In this document: piece after piece, positions 5,830 through 50,033 of the stretch
How positions within the stretch are numbered: position 1 is the stretch's first letter
Layout: every line of letters starts with the position of its first letter
Origin: Halorussus litoreus
GTDB taxonomy: Archaea > Halobacteriota > Halobacteria > Halobacteriales > Haladaptataceae
Reading direction: 5' to 3'
Length of the DNA stretch: 56,250 nucleotides
NCBI RefSeq assembly: GCF_003382685.1
Contig: NZ_QLVG01000047.1
Coordinates: 1-56,250 of the forward strand
Position numbers and translations under genes: made by a program
Notes under the pieces: model-generated
What the model was told of the DNA's origin: nothing
The model's database searches: none
What the model saw: only the letters and a program-made list of their open reading frames with translations

Positions 5830-5904
5830 GGGCGCTTAGCTCAGTCTGGACAGAGTACTTGGCTTCGGACCAAGCTGTCGCGGGTTCAAATCCTGCAGCG
5901 CCCA
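5830..5904 (+). tRNA. tRNA-Arg (anticodon TCG)
   Basis: Acceptor GGGCGCT (5830-5836) pairs with AGCGCCC (5897-5903), with discriminator A at 5904. The anticodon arm is CTTGG-CTTCGGA-CCAAG, giving anticodon TCG. The T arm holds GGTTCAAATCC. Its 3' end is the attachment site of the integrated element: the last bases recur at 38817 and 39733. Confidence 0.95.
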
Positions 5905-5908
5905 TTCG
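5892..5908 (+). other. attL: left attachment site in tRNA-Arg
   Basis: The 17-bp string CCTGCAGCGCCCATTCG covers the T-stem/acceptor 3' end of tRNA-Arg and recurs exactly at 38817-38833. Similarity continues imperfectly for about 35 bp into the element (TTTCGAGCGG, then CACATTCGCACGA). The core AGCGCCCATTCGTTTT (5897-5912) recurs exactly at 39733-39748. Confidence 0.9.
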
Positions 5909-6252
5909 TTTTTCGAGCGGTCCACATTCGCACGACGGAAACGGGGCGTTTATAAATCACCCGTCTATTCCGCGTTTGATTCCATTCGACATCCGAACGG
6001 GGGTGGCCGTCGTCCCGCGATTCACTAGGATTTACTTCTTGCCCCTTCGACATAAGGTCTTCGAGCAAATCCGCTCTATTGGAGGCTTTAAACACTGATA
6101 GTAACGGTCTGCAAGATACAGAGGATAAGTTTAGCGATCGGTCTCAGAAACCGTCGTCGTCATCGCCGACGAACAAAGTTACCTCGCGGCCAATGTCTGC
6201 GAAACGGCGACAGAACGGTTATCTCGGCAAATGTTGTACGCCAACTCGTACC
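5909..6252. other. Non-coding left end of element A
   Basis: About 340 bp without a gene I can support. The first 35 bp are the conserved element end also found at 38834-38867. A TATA-like TTTATAAA lies at about 5950-5957 with no convincing ORF behind it. A TTG-initiated extension of the next gene (from 6079) is basic and Ser-rich, unlike the protein it would extend, and is rejected. Confidence 0.5.
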
Positions 6253-26370: not shown

Positions 26371-28941
26371 GTGTCAATTAGACGAGCAAAATCAGTCGAT
26401 TCTCTCTACGAAGACTGCGAGGACTACGATCTCGTCGTCGTTCCAGAGGCACCGCTCGCGAGAGCGCTGAACCGTCGATTGGACGAACCCCGCCTGGGAG
26501 CGTTCGCAGCCACGCCTCGCCGACTCGCGGTGAGTCGAGAAACGAGGCCCGACGATAGACAGCTCTTCCTCGAAGTCGTCGACCGAACGGAACTCGGCTG
26601 GAAACGGGCCTCGCACCTCGTCAGCGCCGTCCTCAACTGCTGGGAGAAGTCGGGCGACGTCGAGGCCATCCTCGGCTACGACCGCTTCGACGACGAAGCG
26701 ACGCGAACGGTCGTCGACATAGCAAAGCGAACCGAGACTCGCCATCGACGACTTGCAGAGTACAGCGTCGAAGACGACCAATCCATCGCAGTCGTCGGTC
26801 CCGAGTTCTTCACGGAATTGGAGCTCTCCGTCCTCCCCGACGAGTACGACGAAATTTCGCCGTTCGCCGAAGACGCCTTCGACAGGCCGCCGTTCCACGT
26901 CTTCGACTCGACGGCCGCCATCGTCGATACACTGCTTGACACGGTGTCCGCCGAGAACGCGGAGGACGTCGCGGTCGTGATGAATCAGGGAGGCACGTTC
27001 CCCGCGCTGGTCGAATCCGCGCTCGAAGCAGAAGACGTCCCGTTCCACGGCGGACCGGGCTTCGCGGACGAATCCTTCCACCGGCTCTTCGTCCAGTCGC
27101 TCCGCGCGGGATTTGCCGGAAGCGACCTCCGGGTGAAGGACGTCAAGCCGATACTCGCCGAACTCGACGAGTCGCCGAGTATCGACCACGACGAAAAGCG
27201 GCTCTCGGCCGTGGACCTCCGAGAAGTCGACTGGCTCGACTCCTTCTGCGACTCGCTCGACGACTGCACGTTCAGGACCGCGCTCGAACAGTTCGAGCAG
27301 CGAGCAGACAGCCCACTCACCCGCTTCGAGGAGGAACTGGAAACGCTCAGCATCGCGGACGAGCCCGTGACGGAGACCGCCGTGGACGAACTCGCGTTCT
27401 ATCTCCAAAGCTACGACGTGCCGGTCGACCGCGAGGACGAGGGCGTCCTACTCGCCGCCGCGAAGTCCTCTGCGTACGTCGACCGCCCGGTGGTGTTCTA
27501 CCTCGGTCTCGACCAGGACTGGACGTACTCCCCGCCCGTCTGGCCGTGGGTCGACGAGGAAAGCGAGTTCGAGCGCCATCTCGACCAGTTCCAGTTACTC
27601 ATCCAGAACGGCGTCGATCAGTACTACCTCGTCCGAGACGAAGCGGGTGGGTCCCCCGTAACCCCCTGCCTCTACTTCGAGGAGCTACTCGACGAGGAGT
27701 TCGACCGCTTCAGAGACCTCGATTCGATTCCACACGGCCACGTCAGGTACGCGACCGAGGACGGATTCCAGCGAGAACCCCGTGACGTCGAACCGGAGTC
27801 GGTCGAGACCATCAGCCAGTCGAGCCTGAACACGTACGCCAACTGCCCGCGAGACTACTTCTTCAGTCGCATCGTCGACTCGCCCGACCAGGATTACTTC
27901 CGCGAAGGCAACCTGTTCCACGACTTCGCCGAATTCTACGTCCACCATCCCGAGTTCGTGGATGGCGAGACCATCAACGACGTAGTCGAGGCGATGCTCG
28001 ACGAGATGTCGCAGTTCGTCGGCGACGTCGACCGACCGGTCCTGGAAACCAAGTATCGAATTGGCATCCAGAACGTCGTCGAGTACCTCGACGAGAATCC
28101 GCCCGACGTCGACTCGTTCGTCACGCCCGACGGCGGACGATGGACGAACACCTTCGCGGACCACTTCGACCGATCCGTCGATTCAGACGCCACCGAGCGC
28201 TGGTTCGAGAACGACCACCTCGGACTCAAGGGGAAGATCGACCTCGTACACGGTCCAAACCGCCTCCTTGACTACAAGAGCGGGAGCAAGAAGTCGGCGT
28301 ACTCCATCGTGAAGCACTCGTCGTTCGATCCAATGACCGACGAGCCGAACTTCCAGGCCCTGCTCTACCTCGCGCACCGCCGGAGCGAACGTCCGGGCGA
28401 GCGACTGGAATTCACCTTCTTCCACTTCTTCGAGACCCTCGACGAGGTCGTCGCCGGTGAGGCAGACGTCGAGGACACGCTTACGAAGGTCACCTACTTC
28501 CCGATGCCATTCGACGAGTACGTGGCTTCCCGAGATGCCTTCGAGAAGCTATGCGACGGGTACAAGGACTGTCGACAGACGTTCGAGGACCTCGGCTACG
28601 AGCGCTATCGGGAGATAATGCAACGTCACTCGTTCCCCGATACGACCGACAAGAGCGAACTCCGCGAGTCGGCTTTCTCGGAGGCGTTCGCCGTGGACGT
28701 GGCGGCTGCTGTCTCGGAAGACGTAGATGCCGAGAAAGGCTGTGATCAAGCGATTCGGGAACTCAATGGGGTCCGGAAGCGGAACTTCTTCGAGGAAGAA
28801 GTGGACGCCTTCGAGGAGTTCGTCGACGAACGCTTGGACGAGTTGAACCGCTACCGCGCAGGCGACGCCCGCTTCCCCGTGGGTGAACCGAACTTCGACC
28901 GCGTGGACAACCGCGACCTCGTCCTCACCGACGATGACTGA
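26371..28941 (+). CDS. AddB/RecC-like protein with PD-(D/E)XK nuclease
   Basis: 856 aa from GTG at 26371; the nearby ATG at 26360 is out of frame. The N-terminal half has the layout of an inactivated SF1 helicase: it starts YDLVVVPEAPLARALNRRL without a Walker A Lys, and later has VVFYLGLDQDW and YYLVRDEAGG in the positions of late helicase motifs. The C-terminal nuclease begins SQSSLNTYANCPRDYFF (near 482-497), with GKIDLV near 620 and LLDYKSGSKK near 632 as the D...(D/E)xK residues. Unlike bacterial AddB, no second cysteine cluster is present near the C-terminus, so an iron-sulfur cluster is unlikely. The helicase partner follows 37 bp downstream. Confidence 0.8.
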   Translation: MSIRRAKSVDSLYEDCEDYDLVVVPEAPLARALNRRLDEPRLGAFAATPRRLAVSRETRPDDRQLFLEVVDRTELGWKRASHLVSAVLNCWEKSGDVEAILGYDRFDDEATRTVVDIAKRTETRHRRLAEYSVEDDQSIAVVGPEFFTELELSVLPDEYDEISPFAEDAFDRPPFHVFDSTAAIVDTLLDTVSAENAEDVAVVMNQGGTFPALVESALEAEDVPFHGGPGFADESFHRLFVQSLRAGFAGSDLRVKDVKPILAELDESPSIDHDEKRLSAVDLREVDWLDSFCDSLDDCTFRTALEQFEQRADSPLTRFEEELETLSIADEPVTETAVDELAFYLQSYDVPVDREDEGVLLAAAKSSAYVDRPVVFYLGLDQDWTYSPPVWPWVDEESEFERHLDQFQLLIQNGVDQYYLVRDEAGGSPVTPCLYFEELLDEEFDRFRDLDSIPHGHVRYATEDGFQREPRDVEPESVETISQSSLNTYANCPRDYFFSRIVDSPDQDYFREGNLFHDFAEFYVHHPEFVDGETINDVVEAMLDEMSQFVGDVDRPVLETKYRIGIQNVVEYLDENPPDVDSFVTPDGGRWTNTFADHFDRSVDSDATERWFENDHLGLKGKIDLVHGPNRLLDYKSGSKKSAYSIVKHSSFDPMTDEPNFQALLYLAHRRSERPGERLEFTFFHFFETLDEVVAGEADVEDTLTKVTYFPMPFDEYVASRDAFEKLCDGYKDCRQTFEDLGYERYREIMQRHSFPDTTDKSELRESAFSEAFAVDVAAAVSEDVDAEKGCDQAIRELNGVRKRNFFEEEVDAFEEFVDERLDELNRYRAGDARFPVGEPNFDRVDNRDLVLTDDD

Positions 28942-28977
28942 ACAAGCCCTACCGACGACCCATCCGGCTCACCCACA

Positions 28978-31869
28978 ATGACCGACCCTACACCCAACGA
29001 CCGACAGCGCAAACTCATCCAGAACACCGACGGCATCTATCTCGTCGACGCCGGGGCTGGCACCGGGAAGACGTTCACCGTCACCCGGCGGTACGCGAAC
29101 ATCTTGGCGCAGGATGGCGTCGAACCGGACGACATCCTCCTCATCACGTTCACGGACAACGCGGCGACCGAGATGCGCGAGCGCATCGTCTCCCACTGCG
29201 ACTACGAAATGCGACAGCTGGCGGACGCGCCGATCCAGACGTTCCACAGTCTCTGTCACGACATTCTCCGCGAGTACGGCGTCGACGCGCCGACGCACCT
29301 CGACATCGACGACCGGATCACCGAATCGACCAGCATCGTGAGCGACGACATCGTCGAGGAGGCACTCTTCCGGGAATTCGTCGACCGATTCGGTGACGAC
29401 CATCCGGAGTACGCCGACTTCCTTCGCGTCGTCCGCGACCGGACGAACCTCCTCGACCTCGTCAATCAACTCGCCGCGAAAGGCGTCTTCCCCACCGAAG
29501 ACGGCTGGTATCGAAACGGCGAACGGTACCTCGACGGCGACTTCGAGGCGTTCGAGGAGTTGTTCGACGAGGTGAATCGTCCTCGGAACGGGGGACGCAA
29601 GCAGTCGGCGCTCCGGAAGAAGCTCGGTCGGTACGGACGCAACAAGTGCTACCTCCCCGACGCGCCGGAAAAAGGGGAACTTCGCGGTGGCCGAGGGACC
29701 AAGCAGGTACCCCGCGAGGTCGCCGAGCGAGTCTTCGACGACGACCGCGAGGCGCTCAAGGAGTTCGTCCACGACGTATACTACGAGTACGTCGAGTTCG
29801 CACTCCGAAGGAACTACCTCAACTTCGGCTTCCTCCAGTTGTTCGCGTTCGTACTGCTCTGCGAGGACCATCGCGTTCGAGAGGAAGTCTCGTTCGAGTA
29901 CGCGATGGTCGACGAGTTCCAGGACTCCAGCGAGATCCAGTTCAAGCTCGCGCTCCTGCTCGCCAATACTGACAATCTCTGCGTGGTCGGCGACTGGAAG
30001 CAGAGCATCTACTCGTTCCAATACGCGGCGGTCGAGAACATCCAGCAGTTCCGCGAGCGCCTGACCTGCTTCGCCGACGAACTGAACGAGGACGCCGAGG
30101 ACCACGAGCGAGTGGGGTTCCCGACTGACGACGTGACCGACATCGCGCTGGTCGAGAACTACCGCTCGACCCAGGATATCCTCGACTTCTCCGAACACAG
30201 CCTCATCACGCCCGCGACGAGTACGGACGAGATCGACGAGCAAGCGATGCGCGACCGAATCGTCTCGCTCGAATCGAACGCCGACCGTGAAAACTCGAAT
30301 ATCGAGGCGATTCAGAGCGACGATGAGTACGAATCCGTTCTCACGAAGATTCAGGAAATCGTCGGCAACGAGGCGTACGCGGTCGAACCAACTGAGGGGG
30401 AGGGGAAGGAGGTGAGGAAGGATTCCGACGAACTCCGAGCGCCGCGCTACGAGGACGTCGCAGTCCTCACTCGAACGCGGGACTTCGGCCGCGAACTCCA
30501 GCAGATTGCCGACGAGTACGGGCTGCCGATGGCCTACGAGGGCGGCGTCGAGTTGTTCCGAACCGACGAGGCGAAGCTCCTGCTGGCGTGGCTCCGCATC
30601 CTCGAATCCGATGCCGACCGGGGCTGGGCGACGGTCCTCGAAAGAGCGGGCTACGGTCTCGATGAGGTCAAGCACGCTGTCAAGCGCAACGAATATCCAT
30701 CTGACATGCTCGCCTTCCGCGACGAACTGGCGAGTATCGACACCATCGGTGGCGTCGTACGTCGGGTGTTCTCGAAGTACGGATTCGACGACGCGTACGC
30801 CGACGTGCTGTTAGAAACGCTTCAGTCGGCATTCGACGCGACAACCATGACGCGTGGCGACCTCGTCCAGTTCATCGAGCGTGGAATCGAAGCGGGGAGT
30901 ACCCACGAGGTGAACGACAGCGCCGGGACGAATTCCGTGACGGTCCAGACGATCCACGCCGCGAAGGGGCTCGAACACCCCATCGTGATCCTGGCGAACG
31001 TGAACGAGAACCGGTTCCCACCGACCGGCGTCGACGCGACTGCGATCACCTACGAGGACCCGGTAGGTCTGCGCCAGCGCAAGCAGTACGCCGAGGCGCA
31101 CGGCCACCCCTACGTTTACGACAACTGGCGCGTGGACGTACTGCGGAAATGTCTACCGCAGGAGTATGACGAGGAGCGACGACTCCTGTACGTGGCGATG
31201 ACTCGCGCGGAGAGCCATCTCGTCCTCTCGGCTGGCGAGTCGCCCAGCGGCCTGTTCGAGAATCTGCCCATCGAGCCCCAGAGAGTCGAACCAGACGTCG
31301 CGGTGGACGACTCGACGCAGACCGAACAGGCTCACCTCCAGATCTCCGTCTCGACTCGTGATGGCCCGGAAGGCTACACGCCGCACACGCTGATGCGCGA
31401 CGACGTGTTCGAGGAGGTGGAGGAGGGTGAGGGAATCGAGTTCGGGTCGCGGACACACGCGTTCGCGGAGCGGTACGCGCTCGGCGAAAACGTCGACCTG
31501 TCGAACGAGGACGAACGGAACGTTCGAGCGCTTATCGACTCGCTCGACGGCGAGCTCCGCGTCGAGGAGAAGGCATATCTCCCGCTCACGGTGGAGGGCG
31601 AACGGGTCACCATCTCGGGCATCGTGGACCTGCTCCACGTCACTCCCCAGACGGTCGAGGTTATCGACTATAAGACGGACAGGAGTCGGCACGCGCGCTC
31701 GGAGTATCGGAAACAGTTGAGCGTGTACTACCACGTCGTACGGGAGTGTTATCCCGAACGGGAGATTTCTGCAAGCTTGTTTTATACGCTCGATGGGGTG
31801 CGTGACGAAGTAACGCCAATGTCGAGGGAGGAGATCGAAGCGCTGGTTCAGGGGCAAGAGGACGGATAG
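28978..31869 (+). CDS. AddA/UvrD-like helicase-nuclease
   Basis: 963 aa. All SF1A helicase motifs are present: DAGAGTGKTFTVTRRY near 25, ITFTDNAATEMRERI, the Q/S motif QTFHSLCHDIL, DEFQD near 311, VVGDWKQSIYSFQ near 338, NYRSTQDIL, TIHAAKGLEHPIVIL near 657 and LYVAMTRAESHLVL near 737. The C-terminal PD-(D/E)XK nuclease is complete (ISGIVDLL, VEVIDYKTD near 892, YRKQLSVYYHV). With the upstream AddB-like subunit it should form a two-nuclease DNA-end-processing machine, as AddAB does in bacteria. Here it is element cargo beside defence genes, so degradation of invading DNA ends is more likely than chromosomal recombination repair; that part is inference. Confidence 0.87.
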   Translation: MTDPTPNDRQRKLIQNTDGIYLVDAGAGTGKTFTVTRRYANILAQDGVEPDDILLITFTDNAATEMRERIVSHCDYEMRQLADAPIQTFHSLCHDILREYGVDAPTHLDIDDRITESTSIVSDDIVEEALFREFVDRFGDDHPEYADFLRVVRDRTNLLDLVNQLAAKGVFPTEDGWYRNGERYLDGDFEAFEELFDEVNRPRNGGRKQSALRKKLGRYGRNKCYLPDAPEKGELRGGRGTKQVPREVAERVFDDDREALKEFVHDVYYEYVEFALRRNYLNFGFLQLFAFVLLCEDHRVREEVSFEYAMVDEFQDSSEIQFKLALLLANTDNLCVVGDWKQSIYSFQYAAVENIQQFRERLTCFADELNEDAEDHERVGFPTDDVTDIALVENYRSTQDILDFSEHSLITPATSTDEIDEQAMRDRIVSLESNADRENSNIEAIQSDDEYESVLTKIQEIVGNEAYAVEPTEGEGKEVRKDSDELRAPRYEDVAVLTRTRDFGRELQQIADEYGLPMAYEGGVELFRTDEAKLLLAWLRILESDADRGWATVLERAGYGLDEVKHAVKRNEYPSDMLAFRDELASIDTIGGVVRRVFSKYGFDDAYADVLLETLQSAFDATTMTRGDLVQFIERGIEAGSTHEVNDSAGTNSVTVQTIHAAKGLEHPIVILANVNENRFPPTGVDATAITYEDPVGLRQRKQYAEAHGHPYVYDNWRVDVLRKCLPQEYDEERRLLYVAMTRAESHLVLSAGESPSGLFENLPIEPQRVEPDVAVDDSTQTEQAHLQISVSTRDGPEGYTPHTLMRDDVFEEVEEGEGIEFGSRTHAFAERYALGENVDLSNEDERNVRALIDSLDGELRVEEKAYLPLTVEGERVTISGIVDLLHVTPQTVEVIDYKTDRSRHARSEYRKQLSVYYHVVRECYPEREISASLFYTLDGVRDEVTPMSREEIEALVQGQEDG

Positions 31870-32204
31870 GAAGACAAACGTCGAGCCTGGTTTCGTTTCT
31901 GGTGATAACCAAAGATCGACGGTCCGTTGTGATCGACCACTATGATGTGTGACAGTCGTTCTCTAGGGTACGCAGGTGGGTGGCGAGTTTCCTTAGTTTA
32001 CATTCCTCGTCGGTGTGACCTCTTGCCAGAAGTATACGCACTCCCAAATCAACACCTCGTGGTAGCTACGCAGCCTCGGTGACGGTTCATCGTCATAGCC
32101 GAAATCCAAATTAGCACCTATAATCGTACTCGGCGATCCGTCCGTTATCTCCGATAGCTGCTAGCGGGCCGAGCCCCCTATTCGGGGATTCGGTGGGGAT
32201 CGAA

Positions 32205-32378
32205 GCGCGGTCGGAGCACGGTCAGGGGGCGGTCGGAGCGCGGTCGGAGCGCGGTCGAGGCGCGGTCGGGGTGCGGTGATGACCGCGGTGATCGCGGTTA
32301 TTCGCGGTCGTTCGCGGTCAGTCGCGGTGGATTCGCGGTCAGGGCGCGGTCCCACCGCGGTACCGGCGCGGTACCGCG
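32205..32378. repeat. Helically phased GCGGT array (16 copies) ending in a perfect inverted repeat
   Basis: The motif CGGT, preceded by G in all but one copy, starts at 32208, 32219, 32230, 32241, 32252, 32263, 32274, 32286, 32295, 32305, 32315, 32325, 32336, 32347, 32358 and 32369. Spacings are 11 bp (six times), 12, 9, 10, 10, 10, then 11 bp (four times), so all copies face the same side of the helix. The first part has the unit GCGCGGTCGGA and the middle ATTCGCGGTC. The array closes with CGCGGTACCG-GCG-CGGTACCGCG (32356-32378), a perfect 10-bp inverted repeat. Confidence 0.95.
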
Positions 32379-32705
32379 ACCGCCCCTGCCAGAATCGTTC
32401 AAAACCCCGCGAGAGCCAATTTCGATCTATAATTACCGCCAGCTAGGGTGCGAGTGACCCGGAAATCGGCGGCTCACGAGTAAACAACCCTTGAAGCTCT
32501 CCGCCGTCGTCGTTTTTCTGGTTGAAGACAATCGGAATGAATGTAGATCGCAGAGGGACAAAACCCTCGATAGCCGAGAGTTCGCGGTCAGTATGGCTTC
32601 TACCGGCTATTTCCCGATCGAATCCCCGTTTTATTCCCAGTTTATAGAGCGTTCGCGGCCAAAATCGGCTCTACCGTCGATATTCGGAATTTGAACGAAG
32701 ACGCC

Positions 32706-32714
32706 TTTTTATTC
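32706..32714 (+). promoter_or_regulatory. TATA box upstream of the recombinase operon
   Basis: TTTTTATTC lies 24-32 bp before the ATG of the leader ORF and about 160 bp before the recombinase ATG. No other TATA-like stretch lies nearer the recombinase start. Confidence 0.5.
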
Positions 32715-32737
32715 TCTCGACTATTGCCGACACTCCT

Positions 32738-32881
32738 ATGCACGCCCTAGCCCCTACAGTCTCTGCAGCTCCACCGTTTGCGGGAGCGCGGAGGTCCCCT
32801 TCGAGCACGAAACAGGCAAACCACTCGGTACTCGCGAACTGTAACTTCTCGCCCTCAATACGGGGTGGAAACGATGAGTGA
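32738..32881 (+). CDS. Possible 47-aa leader ORF overlapping the recombinase start
   Basis: ATG at 32738 lies 24-32 bp behind the TATA-like TTTTTATTC (32706-32714), the best promoter in this region and correctly placed for a leaderless mRNA starting at this ATG. The frame stays open for 47 codons and ends with TGA at 32879-32881, overlapping the recombinase ATG (32874) by 8 bp. The peptide is Ala/Pro/Ser-rich and not acidic, so it may work by translation coupling rather than as a protein. It could also be chance. Confidence 0.35.
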   Translation: MHALAPTVSAAPPFAGARRSPSSTKQANHSVLANCNFSPSIRGGNDE

Positions 32882-33992
32882 CTTCGAGGGCGAGGACAAA
32901 CTCGACGAGATCCTCCGACACGTTGATCCGCGCTCGGATCTCGACTCGGTTCCGGCTACAGAAGCCGTAGACAAGTACCTCGAATCACGCTCGTCCGAGG
33001 TCACGGGCAATACCCGCTCGGAATACGAGGCCAAACTCGGCAATTTCATAGAATTCTGTGACCAGCGCGACATCGAACAGGTAAAGAATCTCGATGGAGC
33101 GGCGTTGGACGACCTCAAAGTCTGGATCAGAGAGGAAGTTCCAGAAGTAACCAAAGAGTACAGTCCGAAGACGATGCGGGACCAGATGTACCTGCTACGG
33201 AACTTCCTCAGGTACCTCGAACAGATCGAGGCCGTCCCGGCCGGACTCCATGAGAAGGTCGACGTTCCAGAACTCGAAAGCGACGACGGCGTTAGCGACG
33301 AGTTCCTCGAAGCAGAACGCGTTCGGTCGATCCTCGACCACCTCTCAACCTTCGAGTACGCGTCGCGAGAGCACGTCGTGTGGCTCCTTCTCTCCCTGAC
33401 TGGTGGCCGGAAAGGAGCCATCCACAGTCTCGACGTGGACGACTGCCACGTGGACGGTGAGAACTACATCGAATTCAGACACCGCCCGGAACAGGGGACG
33501 AGATTGAAGAACGGGATGAAGAGCGAACGCGAGGTCAGCATTCCCGCGTCTGCAGCTGAGGCCTTCAGCGATTACGTCGAGACCACCCGAATCGGCGTCA
33601 CTGACGACTACGAACGCCGTCCACTTCTCACGACCAAGTACGGTCGCGTCTCGAAGTCGACGCTCACGAAGGACGTCTACAAGTGGTCCCGACCGTGCAT
33701 GATCTCGGACGACTGTCCACACGAGCGCAGTGTCGACGAATGTTCTGCGGCTACGAACTTGGACGTCGCGTCGAAATGCCCGTCAAGTGCGTCTCCGCAT
33801 CGAGTTCGGACGGGCTATCTGACGACGGAGCGGAAGAACGGCGCCCCGAAGGAGGTGCTCAGTGAGCGGTGCGACGTGAGCGAATCGATCCTCGAAAAGC
33901 ACTACGAGTTCCTCTCCGAAGAGGAACAGCGGAAGATGCGTCAGCGTATTTTGAAGGAGGTCCGCGGCGATAGTGACGGATACGCAGGATGA
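32874..33992 (+). CDS. Tyrosine recombinase (phage-integrase family), internal copy
   Basis: 372 aa from ATG at 32874 (SDFEGEDKLDEILRHVD). It has a SAM-like N-terminal DNA-binding domain (VDKYLESRSSEVTGNTRSEYEAKLGNF...) and a catalytic domain with Arg in TGGRKGA near 176, HRVR near 308 and the nucleophile Tyr in HYEFLS near 343. Four cysteines between the catalytic motifs (MISDDCPHERSVDECSA... region) resemble the zinc-like insert of haloarchaeal integrases. It is only distantly similar to the recombinase at 37692, is 5 kb from any att site and lies behind the phased array, so it may act on a different target such as that array. All catalytic residues appear intact. Confidence 0.85.
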   Translation: MSDFEGEDKLDEILRHVDPRSDLDSVPATEAVDKYLESRSSEVTGNTRSEYEAKLGNFIEFCDQRDIEQVKNLDGAALDDLKVWIREEVPEVTKEYSPKTMRDQMYLLRNFLRYLEQIEAVPAGLHEKVDVPELESDDGVSDEFLEAERVRSILDHLSTFEYASREHVVWLLLSLTGGRKGAIHSLDVDDCHVDGENYIEFRHRPEQGTRLKNGMKSEREVSIPASAAEAFSDYVETTRIGVTDDYERRPLLTTKYGRVSKSTLTKDVYKWSRPCMISDDCPHERSVDECSAATNLDVASKCPSSASPHRVRTGYLTTERKNGAPKEVLSERCDVSESILEKHYEFLSEEEQRKMRQRILKEVRGDSDGYAG

Positions 33993-37691: not shown

Positions 37692-38702
37692 TTACAGGTC
37701 GTCAAGGTAGTCTCTCCGCTGCTCCATCTTCTCTCGTTCCGACCGTCTATCGTAGTGCTGTTCAATGACCGCAGGACTCACGTTGGCCCGGTCACTAACG
37801 ACTTTTTCAGGCATGTCATTGTGCAGATTATGCGTGATGCTACCCCGTCGAATCGCGTGGGGATTCAGAGACGAGGGACATTTCGACAGGTGATTCCGTG
37901 ACCGCGCTTTGCAATCCACTATTTCACGGTCGTGCGGACACTCACCCTCGTATCGGCACGGTTGCGTCCACCTGTAGACGCAGTGTCGGAGCGTGGCCTT
38001 GCTCGCACGTCCCTGAACGGTCGTCAGTAGCGGTTCACGCCCATAGTCGTCGGTGACGTCGGGACGCTGGTCAACAAGCCAATCGTCGAGGAGTCTGCAC
38101 AAGCGGTTAGAGAGCGCGACCAGCCGTTCACCGTCTTCTTTGTTTTTTATTGGTGTCCCCTGCTCCGCACGATGGCGAACCTCAATGTATTGTTCGTCGG
38201 AGTGATAGTCCTCGACGTCCAGTGCGTGGACCCCTCCGATGCGCATCATTGTGTGCCACATCAGCGCGACTGACACGTGGTCGATGGTCGCGTACTCGTA
38301 CTTCTCCAAGTGCGCCAAGACTTTCTCCGCTCGCTCCGACTTCAGTATCTCGTGGCGCGTGTTCTGCTCGGGTGTAATCGACGGTGACAGCACCTTCTCG
38401 CTGAGGTCCTGTTCGACGCCGTCGACGCTCTCCACCCAGCGGACGAACACGCGGAGTGTGTCCATTTGGGTCTTCTCGGTGACGGGTGAGAGGTCACCCT
38501 CGTTGCGCCGCCACAGCCGATACTGGTGGAGCTGGCGACCCCTCAGCGTATTCAGGTTCTCGATGTCCTGCTCGTCGCACCACCGGATGAAGTGGTTGAG
38601 CCGGTACTTGTGGGCCTTCAACGAGGCCTTGGCGAGTTCGTTTTCCTTGTCTGCAAGGTACAGTTCGAGCGCGGTCTCGGGTTCGATTGGTTCCAGACTC
38701 AT
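37692..38702 (-). CDS. Tyrosine recombinase (integrase of element A)
   Basis: 336 aa. The N-terminal core-binding domain has ETALELYLADKENELAKASLKAHKYRLNHFIRWC. The catalytic domain has Arg in MMRIGGVHALD near 153, HAIRRGSITH near 281 and the nucleophile in HYDRRSEREKM near 316. Two Cys pairs (CRYEGECPHD...DCKARS) lie before the HxxR motif, as in other haloarchaeal integrases. Its start is 115 bp from the middle att copy, the normal position for the enzyme that recombines the tRNA site. The gene is not split by the att site, so integration does not disrupt it and excision should remain possible. Confidence 0.9.
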   Translation of the reverse strand: MSLEPIEPETALELYLADKENELAKASLKAHKYRLNHFIRWCDEQDIENLNTLRGRQLHQYRLWRRNEGDLSPVTEKTQMDTLRVFVRWVESVDGVEQDLSEKVLSPSITPEQNTRHEILKSERAEKVLAHLEKYEYATIDHVSVALMWHTMMRIGGVHALDVEDYHSDEQYIEVRHRAEQGTPIKNKEDGERLVALSNRLCRLLDDWLVDQRPDVTDDYGREPLLTTVQGRASKATLRHCVYRWTQPCRYEGECPHDREIVDCKARSRNHLSKCPSSLNPHAIRRGSITHNLHNDMPEKVVSDRANVSPAVIEQHYDRRSEREKMEQRRDYLDDL

Positions 38703-38816: not shown

Positions 38817-38833
38817 CCTGCAGCGCCCATTCG
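38817..38833 (+). other. attM: middle attachment site
   Basis: An exact copy of the 17-bp tRNA-Arg 3' end CCTGCAGCGCCCATTCG. To its right the next 35 bp resemble the element's left end at 5909-5942 (TTTCGAGCGG, CACATTCGCACGA, GGAA shared), so it is the junction between element A's right end and the left end of a second related element. Confidence 0.85.
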
Positions 38834-38876
38834 AGTTTCGAGCGGCTTCACATTCGCACGAGGGAAGCAGCGCGTA

Positions 38877-39495: not shown

Positions 39496-39821
39496 CTCCT
39501 ACAGTGTAGTATTGAGCATGGCCTAATAATGATTATATATGGCTTCCTACTACTGTCGGGATGGTATTGTTTGCTGTTCCCCGTGATGCTTTGTCGTCTC
39601 GTCAGCTCCATCCTGGGGACTGGCGAAGTTCTACGTACGCTCGCTGAGGTTGTGGCCCTCCTGTTCTTCAGTGTTGACAACGGTCCGCGTAGTGGAGCCA
39701 GCAGGACTCATAAACTACCGTCCAAACCCGGTAGCGCCCATTCGTTTTCCGACGCTCCGAAGCCGAATCGCGACCTGCCGCTTCGGCCACCTTTAGGAAC
39801 ACCAGTCCCGAAACGTCGTGC
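39496..39821. other. Right junction: non-coding 326 bp with TATA boxes and attR
   Basis: It contains the AT-rich promoter of the Thr-rich protein gene (ATTATATATGG near 39532-39542), the right att copy at 39733, and a CTTTAGG TATA-like box about 30 bp before the aminotransferase ATG. I see no gene in it. Confidence 0.6.
39733..39748 (+). other. attR: right attachment site
   Basis: The 16 bases AGCGCCCATTCGTTTT are identical to 5897-5912 (acceptor stem plus 3' flank of tRNA-Arg). To the right the sequence is uniformly GC-rich backbone leading straight into a metabolic gene. This is the outer boundary of the tandem insertion. Confidence 0.8.
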
Positions 39822-49434: not shown

Positions 49435-50033
49435 CGCGATTCTCGGGTCGAGTTTTCGTTTCGGGCGTTTTGATTTCTCCGTCTGCTCGACTTCTACTCG
49501 ATTTTCCTTGGCTCACGCTGGCTTTCACGTTCCAGACCGGCGCGTGCAGGCGCGACCTTGTGTCGCGCCACAGCGCGCGAGGGACGAGTAGCGCAGGCCG
49601 GAGGCCGAGCAACGCAGGAGGCTGGGGAGGTGTGAGGCCTGCGGTGGCGGTGCAGGGCAGTGCGGTCGCGGTGCTGCTGCGGTGGCGGTGCAGGGCAGTG
49701 CGGTCGCGGTGCTGCTGCGGTGGCGGTGCGGTCACGCCTCGGCTCAAGCAGTAGCTAGCTTCCTAGACTCTCACGCCACAGGATTTCGTGCTAAAGAAGC
49801 TAGCTTCTGCCGAGGCATATGAGAAACCGCAACCGCACCCCGCTGCACCGCACCTCGTCCTCCCCAACCGCTTGCGGTCCTCGCTTCGCTGCGGTCCTCA
49901 GCCCTCGCGCGCGCCGTACTTCCATAGAATTTCGTTCGCTCCAATTCTGAAAGTAGAATACCGTTCGCACCGAGTCTGAAAGTTGAGAAAAACTGAGAAG
50001 ACACGCCGACTCAAATCCAAAACAGAGAAACGC
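49435..50033. other. 600-bp repeat-rich intergenic region
   Basis: Between convergent permease and phosphoesterase genes. It has a terminator-like hairpin near 49549-49570, the 38-bp tandem repeat at 49641, an imperfect inverted repeat around 49753-49807 that includes the 12-bp palindrome GAAGCTAGCTTC (49796-49807), and several CTCGCTTCGCT-type runs common in haloarchaeal spacers. The 15-mer CGGCTCAAGCAGTAG at about 49740 also occurs near 1380. No gene is supported. Confidence 0.6.
49641..49736. repeat. 38-bp tandem repeat, about 2.4 copies
   Basis: Units at 49641 and 49679 are identical (starting GCGGTGGCGGTGCAGGGCAG); a partial third unit begins at 49717 and diverges after about 13 bases. 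It lies between two convergent genes. Confidence 0.9.

Follow-up and report, generated by a model that had tools for sequence, protein, structure and literature searches.

The question raised by this locus is what a run of sixteen short GCGGT-type repeats does in the noncoding DNA of an integrated defense element of Halorussus litoreus, and whether it serves that element at all. The window, i.e., the whole 56,250-nucleotide stretch of DNA that we analyzed, carries this array between a helicase gene and a tyrosine recombinase gene. An earlier note had taken it for a cooperative protein-binding array, such as a partition or nucleation site, an accessory recombination site, or an iteron-like origin of the element. 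The features that bear on the question are collected in Table 1.

Table 1. Positions of the array, its parts, and related features in the window
Feature	Position	Strand	Description
att repeat, left element end	5892..5940	+	tRNA-Arg 3' end; matches 38817-38866 at 90% over 50 bp
UvrD helicase with C-terminal PD-(D/E)XK nuclease (AddA-like)	28978..31869	+	Pfam UvrD-helicase 1.2e-51, PDDEXK_1; upstream neighbor of the array
Imperfect hairpin CCGAGCCCC / CGGGGATTCGG	32169..32193	+	directly 5' of the array; paired in RNA fold
First sub-array	32205..32277	+	seven strict 11-bp units, GCGGTCGGAGC type; TRF 11 bp x 6.6
Core starts 1-8	32207, 32218 (ACGGT), 32229, 32240, 32251, 32262, 32273, 32285	+	
Middle sub-array	32284..32341	+	10-bp units, spacers varied; TRF 10 bp x 5.8
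Core starts 9-16	32294, 32304, 32314, 32324, 32335, 32346, 32357, 32368	+	
Last sub-array	32343..32378	+	11-bp units, closes on the CGCGGTACCGCG palindrome; TRF block
Outlying single GCGGT core	32584..32588	+	TTCGCGGTCAGT context, like the middle sub-array
Tyrosine recombinase	32874..33992	+	SAM-like core-binding and catalytic domains; downstream neighbor of the array
att repeat, right element end	38817..38866	+	adjoins integrase 37692-38702 (-)
Dispersed-family member in the window	49605..49759	+	carries 5' box GGCTGGGGAGG and 3' box GGCTCAAGCAGTAGCTAGC

The att repeats at tRNA-Arg bound a 33-kb integrated element, whose own integrase is likely the protein encoded at 37692-38702 (-) at the right end; the recombinase that follows the array is a different protein and lies far from either att repeat, as the earlier note had observed. 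The cargo comprises an SNF2/PLD-type helicase, an HmaB-like methylase, an HmaC/DUF499 ATPase, a large DUF4011 helicase-nuclease, a PD-(D/E)XK protein, a UvrD-PD-(D/E)XK protein, the second recombinase, and a GmrSD-type protein. A Pfam scan of the element proteins returned helicases, nucleases, DUF499, recombinases, and a TrmB-like HTH, with several open reading frames (ORFs) matchless, and none of the proteins scanned belonged to the Rep, Orc/Cdc6, or Par families. The genes for the UvrD protein and the second recombinase flank the array, which starts 337 bp past the helicase stop codon and lies ~500 bp upstream of the recombinase. The region is noncoding, as had been claimed, with no ORF of at least 80 aa across the array; its reported length of 870 bp fits an ATG at 32739, which opens a short ORF overlapping the recombinase start, while the gap from the helicase stop (31869) to the recombinase ATG (32874) measures 1004 bp.

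The short ORF (32739-32880, ~46 codons) ends in a TGA that overlaps the recombinase ATG (ATGAGTGA), and the recombinase may be translationally coupled to this leader peptide. On the other side of the array, the PD-(D/E)XK protein followed by the UvrD-PD-(D/E)XK protein (26371-31869) forms an AddB/AddA-like pair. A third, weaker tRNA-Arg 3'-end repeat was found at 39728-39752, 911 bp beyond the second att repeat, and the three repeats suggest successive integrations at the same tRNA. The segment 35994-36256, which matches 37693-37955 within the integrase gene at 76% identity, is probably a remnant of a second, related integrase.

The array itself spans 32207..32372 on the plus strand. The count of sixteen cores given in the earlier note was correct, although one of them is ACGGT (32218) and the other 15 are GCGGT. 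The spacings were exactly as had been listed (11, 11, 11, 11, 11, 11, 12, 9, 10, 10, 10, 11, 11, 11, and 11 bp), with a range of 9 to 12 bp and a mean of 10.7 bp, and the closing perfect inverted repeat was likewise recovered as the 12-bp palindrome CGCGGTACCGCG at 32367-32378, with a longer palindrome (24 nt, 79%) also at the array end. The density of GCGGT is far above chance, i.e., 15 copies in 180 bp compared to a maximum of 2 to 5 in 100 Markov-simulated windows, and a chain of 16 copies of a 4-mer at 9- to 12-bp steps occurs in the array only, the longest elsewhere in the window being 5. TRF resolved the array into three tandem blocks, with periods of 11 bp, then 10 bp, and then 11 bp. 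Inverted cores are present within the array (ACCGCGGT, GCGGTACCGC), and besides the outlying core of Table 1 there is a second outlying, partial site, GCGGC at 32655. A CRISPR array, with repeats of ~24 to 40 bp and unique spacers of similar length, is ruled out by the unit of 9 to 12 bp, in agreement with the earlier note, and an Rfam search of the array region gave no match, even at E up to 1. We also considered a 10-bp inverted match between 32183 and 32612-32628 as the ends of a small insertion and rejected it, as no target duplication was seen.

The proposal that the array is phased with the DNA turn holds approximately: the phasing is good, not exact. Phase coherence of the cores was 0.80 for a period of 10.5 bp and peaked at 0.875 for 10.65 bp, but the first seven units are exactly 11.0 bp long, which gives a drift of ~3 bp against B-DNA. 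When the order of the spacings was shuffled, coherence was equal or better in 86% of trials. Because shuffled spacings phase equally well, the phase of the array follows from unit lengths of 9 to 12 bp, and it adds no separate evidence that phase has been selected.

Cores and spacers differ in how well they are kept. Differences from consensus were found at 1 of 80 core positions versus 26 of 64 positions in the flanking spacer columns, and a minimum spanning tree required at least 26 spacer edits versus 1 core edit (binomial P ~1e-6), with the GCGGT core picked post hoc from the sequence itself. Of 1000 arrays simulated under neutral tandem growth, 0 retained a block of five columns with at most one change; the simulation allowed for the best 5-column block and used a simple growth model. 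The C and T of GCGGT were kept in 16 of 16 cores. This contrast is the strongest sign of function in the array, and a conserved core among diverged spacers favors sequence-specific recognition of GCGGT over a decaying simple repeat.

A search of haloarchaeal genomes for phased arrays, which the earlier note had recommended, revealed that the window array is far from alone. Four-copy 11-bp GCGGT arrays occur in 70 of 392 haloarchaeal genomes and 27 of 95 genera, with ~445 matches for GCGGT versus ~50 for the reversed motif (about ninefold, overlapping matches being included in both totals), and the window array is among the exact four-copy matches (G000:C28:32229-32266, intergenic). Most of the arrays examined (62/68) lie between genes, and overall they favor neither strand relative to the neighboring genes, whose orientation was taken from a simple home-made gene caller. 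Of 56 arrays, 11 start no more than 50 bp from the stop codon of a co-directional gene, versus 2 beside a divergent start. A 3'-UTR signal as a general rule was rejected, since there is no overall gene-orientation bias around the arrays, though a subset starts at stops. In two species of another family (L273, ~3009; L274, minus, ~2979), arrays begin in a gene's last codons, with the stop codon within CGGTGA or GCGATAA; the position is equal in both species and the units differ. Altogether, the window array is a member of a broad, apparently undescribed class of intergenic 11-bp GCGGT arrays of haloarchaea, and no description of such arrays was found in the open-access literature (subscription papers lay outside this search).

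The host genome carries many GCGGT arrays, most of them within one dispersed element family. In its members, GCGGT cores spaced 5, 6, or 11 bp apart are preceded by a GC-rich hairpin and a 5' box (GGCTGGGGAGG..GAGGC) and followed by a 3' box (GGCTCAAGCAGTAGCTAGC). By pattern searches, from which the genome-wide counts derive, the 3' box has 117 copies in the host genome (53 plus, 64 minus) compared to 1 for the control, fewer copies in sister species, and 0 in the sister genus g2. Among 32 elements selected by the 3' box alone, GCGGT was the top 5-mer (90 copies), and the distances between GCGGT pairs in these elements were 5-6, 10-11, 16, 22, 27-28, 33, and 44 bp, with few between, i.e., clustered at multiples of 5.5 bp. 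REP/BIME-type elements consist of palindromic units and have associated transposases (PMC2817692); the host GCGGT family resembles them in having >100 dispersed intergenic copies within a single genome in both orientations, and differs from them in that palindromic units with transposases were not identified.

The copy number of the dispersed family varies across the genus. In the window, the family occupies 49540-49760 (+) and 49800-49890 (-), and such converging pairs occur sometimes; in three of them the 3' boxes are exactly 57 bp apart (C6:107314/107371, C36:3432/3489, and C64:4757/4814). At L154, L167, L174, and L183, some copies of the 3' box come after another repeat, GGATGAAGGGCGAGCGA..GAGCGAGGGCTTCT, and not directly after GCGGT cores; thus, the 3' box is common to two element kinds.

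We tentatively favor the reading that the array is a cluster of sites for a sequence-specific, probably host-encoded, putative factor that binds cooperatively. In this respect the protein-binding array of the earlier note stands as the best reading, whereas its element-specific versions found no support. The ~16 GCGGT sites, with about one to each turn of the helix, would be read in cis by a sequence-specific DNA-binding factor, most likely a haloarchaeal nucleoid or regulatory protein encoded by the host and cooperative along one face of the DNA, and its binding might lead to compaction, insulation, or silencing between the two genes, or to termination. The binding, the host encoding of the factor, and the effect are inferred, and several lines of evidence speak for the reading as a whole. 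The cores are nearly uniform among diverged spacers; their C and T are kept throughout and are not required by GG pairing alone; GCGGT is the top 5-mer, at clustered distances, in the 3'-box-selected elements; 11-bp arrays of GCGGT far outnumber those of the reversed motif; and inverted cores are present, as in a dimer site. The reading is weakened because the first seven units are strictly spaced, as tandem duplication gives, because the spacing order phases no better than shuffled orders, and because the core was chosen post hoc and the simulation is a simple growth model.

A credible though somewhat unlikely alternative is a nonfunctional minisatellite, in which G-rich 10- to 11-bp units were multiplied by slippage or unequal exchange and the helical phase is a by-product of unit length. 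The strict 11.0-bp units and the three TRF blocks are what such growth would leave behind, elsewhere in the host genome there are arrays that come close to perfect simple repeats, such as the 24 GCGGT at C6:41164, and the mostly intergenic placement of arrays with no overall strand preference is consistent with it. However, a minisatellite leaves the protection of the core amid diverged spacers unexplained, many genera have GCGGT combined with unrelated spacers, which is far less the case for the reversed motif, and the unit GCGGTCGGAGC is present elsewhere in the dispersed family only at background level, not amplified.

Distinctly unlikely is a role of nucleic acid structure, i.e., that two-tier G-quadruplexes or a strongly folded transcript affect transcription or RNA stability. 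The first sub-array has the strongest G-skew of the window (0.39 at 32199-32278) and a G4Hunter score of 0.91, the window's top score of 1.05 lies at 32181-32260, and there are 15 G2-type quadruplex motif starts. RNA folds of both strands beat 200 of 200 shuffles (z of -3.3 and -3.0), and such structures would be favored by the molar potassium of haloarchaeal cells; the 11 arrays close to co-directional stops can be compared with the repeats of Rehm 2015 (PMC4692102). Yet the array has no G3 motif (four tracts of at least three G), the core C and T, which a quadruplex does not need, are invariant, the second half of the array is low in skew with longer loops, and the window array starts well past the helicase stop codon. 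Among published repeats, the closest to these arrays are the G-rich GGGNATC repeats scattered through intergenic DNA of Xanthomonas and Nostoc, which are found preferentially on the sense strand no more than 50 bp from a stop codon (PMC4692102). The haloarchaeal arrays share with these repeats short G-rich units, a genome-wide intergenic distribution, variable copy number, and a subset near stops; unlike the 7-bp units with G3 tracts (PMC4692102), they have an 11-bp (5+6) period, a GCGGT core, variable spacers, and mostly GG tracts. Archaeal G-quadruplexes have been treated elsewhere (PMC12873603).

That the array is a dedicated site of the mobile element, whether for partition, for replication as an iteron origin, or for recombination as accessory arm sites of the 32874 recombinase, is very unlikely. 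Its place upstream of a recombinase gene inside a tRNA-Arg-bounded element speaks for such a role, as do the terminal palindrome and the 16 direct repeats, iteron- or arm-site-like in form. Plasmid iteron origins and partition sites have direct repeats near one helical turn apart, and the array is like them in this; unlike them, it has no cognate Rep or Par protein that we found, nor Orc/Cdc6, among the element proteins scanned, and it is not kept with the element genes. Lambda-type attP arm sites comprise multiple Int, Xis, and IHF sites (PMC8371274), to which the multiple repeated sites near a tyrosine recombinase gene are similar, but the array is not at an att site, where the adjacent integrase is a different protein. 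In addition, the 32874 recombinase showed core-binding and catalytic domains only, with no arm-binding domain found.

Comparison with relatives of both neighboring genes bears on the same point. The closest relatives of the 32874 recombinase are 49 to 51% identical to it, and in all 58 relatives examined the ~1.5 kb upstream is free of comparable phased arrays, one relative having a chance chain of 5 TCGT, far upstream; no relative was confirmed in viral contigs. Relatives of the UvrD helicase are present in 147 of 392 genomes of the order, with roughly 50 to 71% identity among the matches listed, and the array was absent downstream of all 30 examined, including one from the same genus, as was a 32874-type recombinase downstream of the 29 tested. 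No orthologous copy of the window array was found among the genomes sampled, nor any DNA similarity of the array region to plasmids. Exact 18-mer searches of genome and viral collections gave scattered single matches, none within a comparable array, and a DNA search of 392 genomes with the 1.2-kb region returned only helicase-gene fragments, coding or low-identity repeats, and one sister-species array. The array is probably not reserved for the element as an att accessory site, an origin, or a centromere, against what the earlier note had proposed. Since arrays are common in the intergenic DNA of the genome and the order, the window array is no hallmark of the defense element.

It is highly improbable that the array derives, by truncation or divergence, from the dispersed family of the genus (~117 copies in the host genome). 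The GCGGT core and 11-bp step are common to both, the first core comes after a hairpin and a TGGGGA..TCGA.GC stretch, an arrangement also seen in family members, and the sister-species member G013:C1:2606648 has the same CGGAG spacers, but the window array has no 5- or 6-bp steps, the 3' box is absent from 31870-32874 (best match, 8/19 mismatches), and the 5' flank bears a weak likeness to the 5' box (among the top 4% of GCGGT sites, with no significance versus shuffles). The window array appears to have private spacers and to be without the 3' end of the family. A Chi-like site for the AddA/AddB-like neighbors was rejected as a main idea: the helicase relatives are without the array, and outside arrays in the window GCGGT is not clearly enriched or strand-biased (133 versus 118 expected; ACCGC, 121 versus 115).

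The reading that a host-encoded factor binds GCGGT has a broader form, which we consider doubtful. The 11-bp GCGGT array would be an order-wide haloarchaeal cis-signal, read by one conserved putative array-binding protein (a chromatin, insulator, or termination factor), multiplied in dispersed elements, and also carried or acquired by mobile defense elements. If the core is read by a protein, the arrays would be the footprint of a new, widely used haloarchaeal DNA-binding system, and the window array, with 16 sites and private spacers, would be a clean bait for the binding protein. Even if the arrays are neutral, >100 GCGGT elements in a single genome, with relatives across the genus, bear on the evolution of haloarchaeal intergenic DNA.
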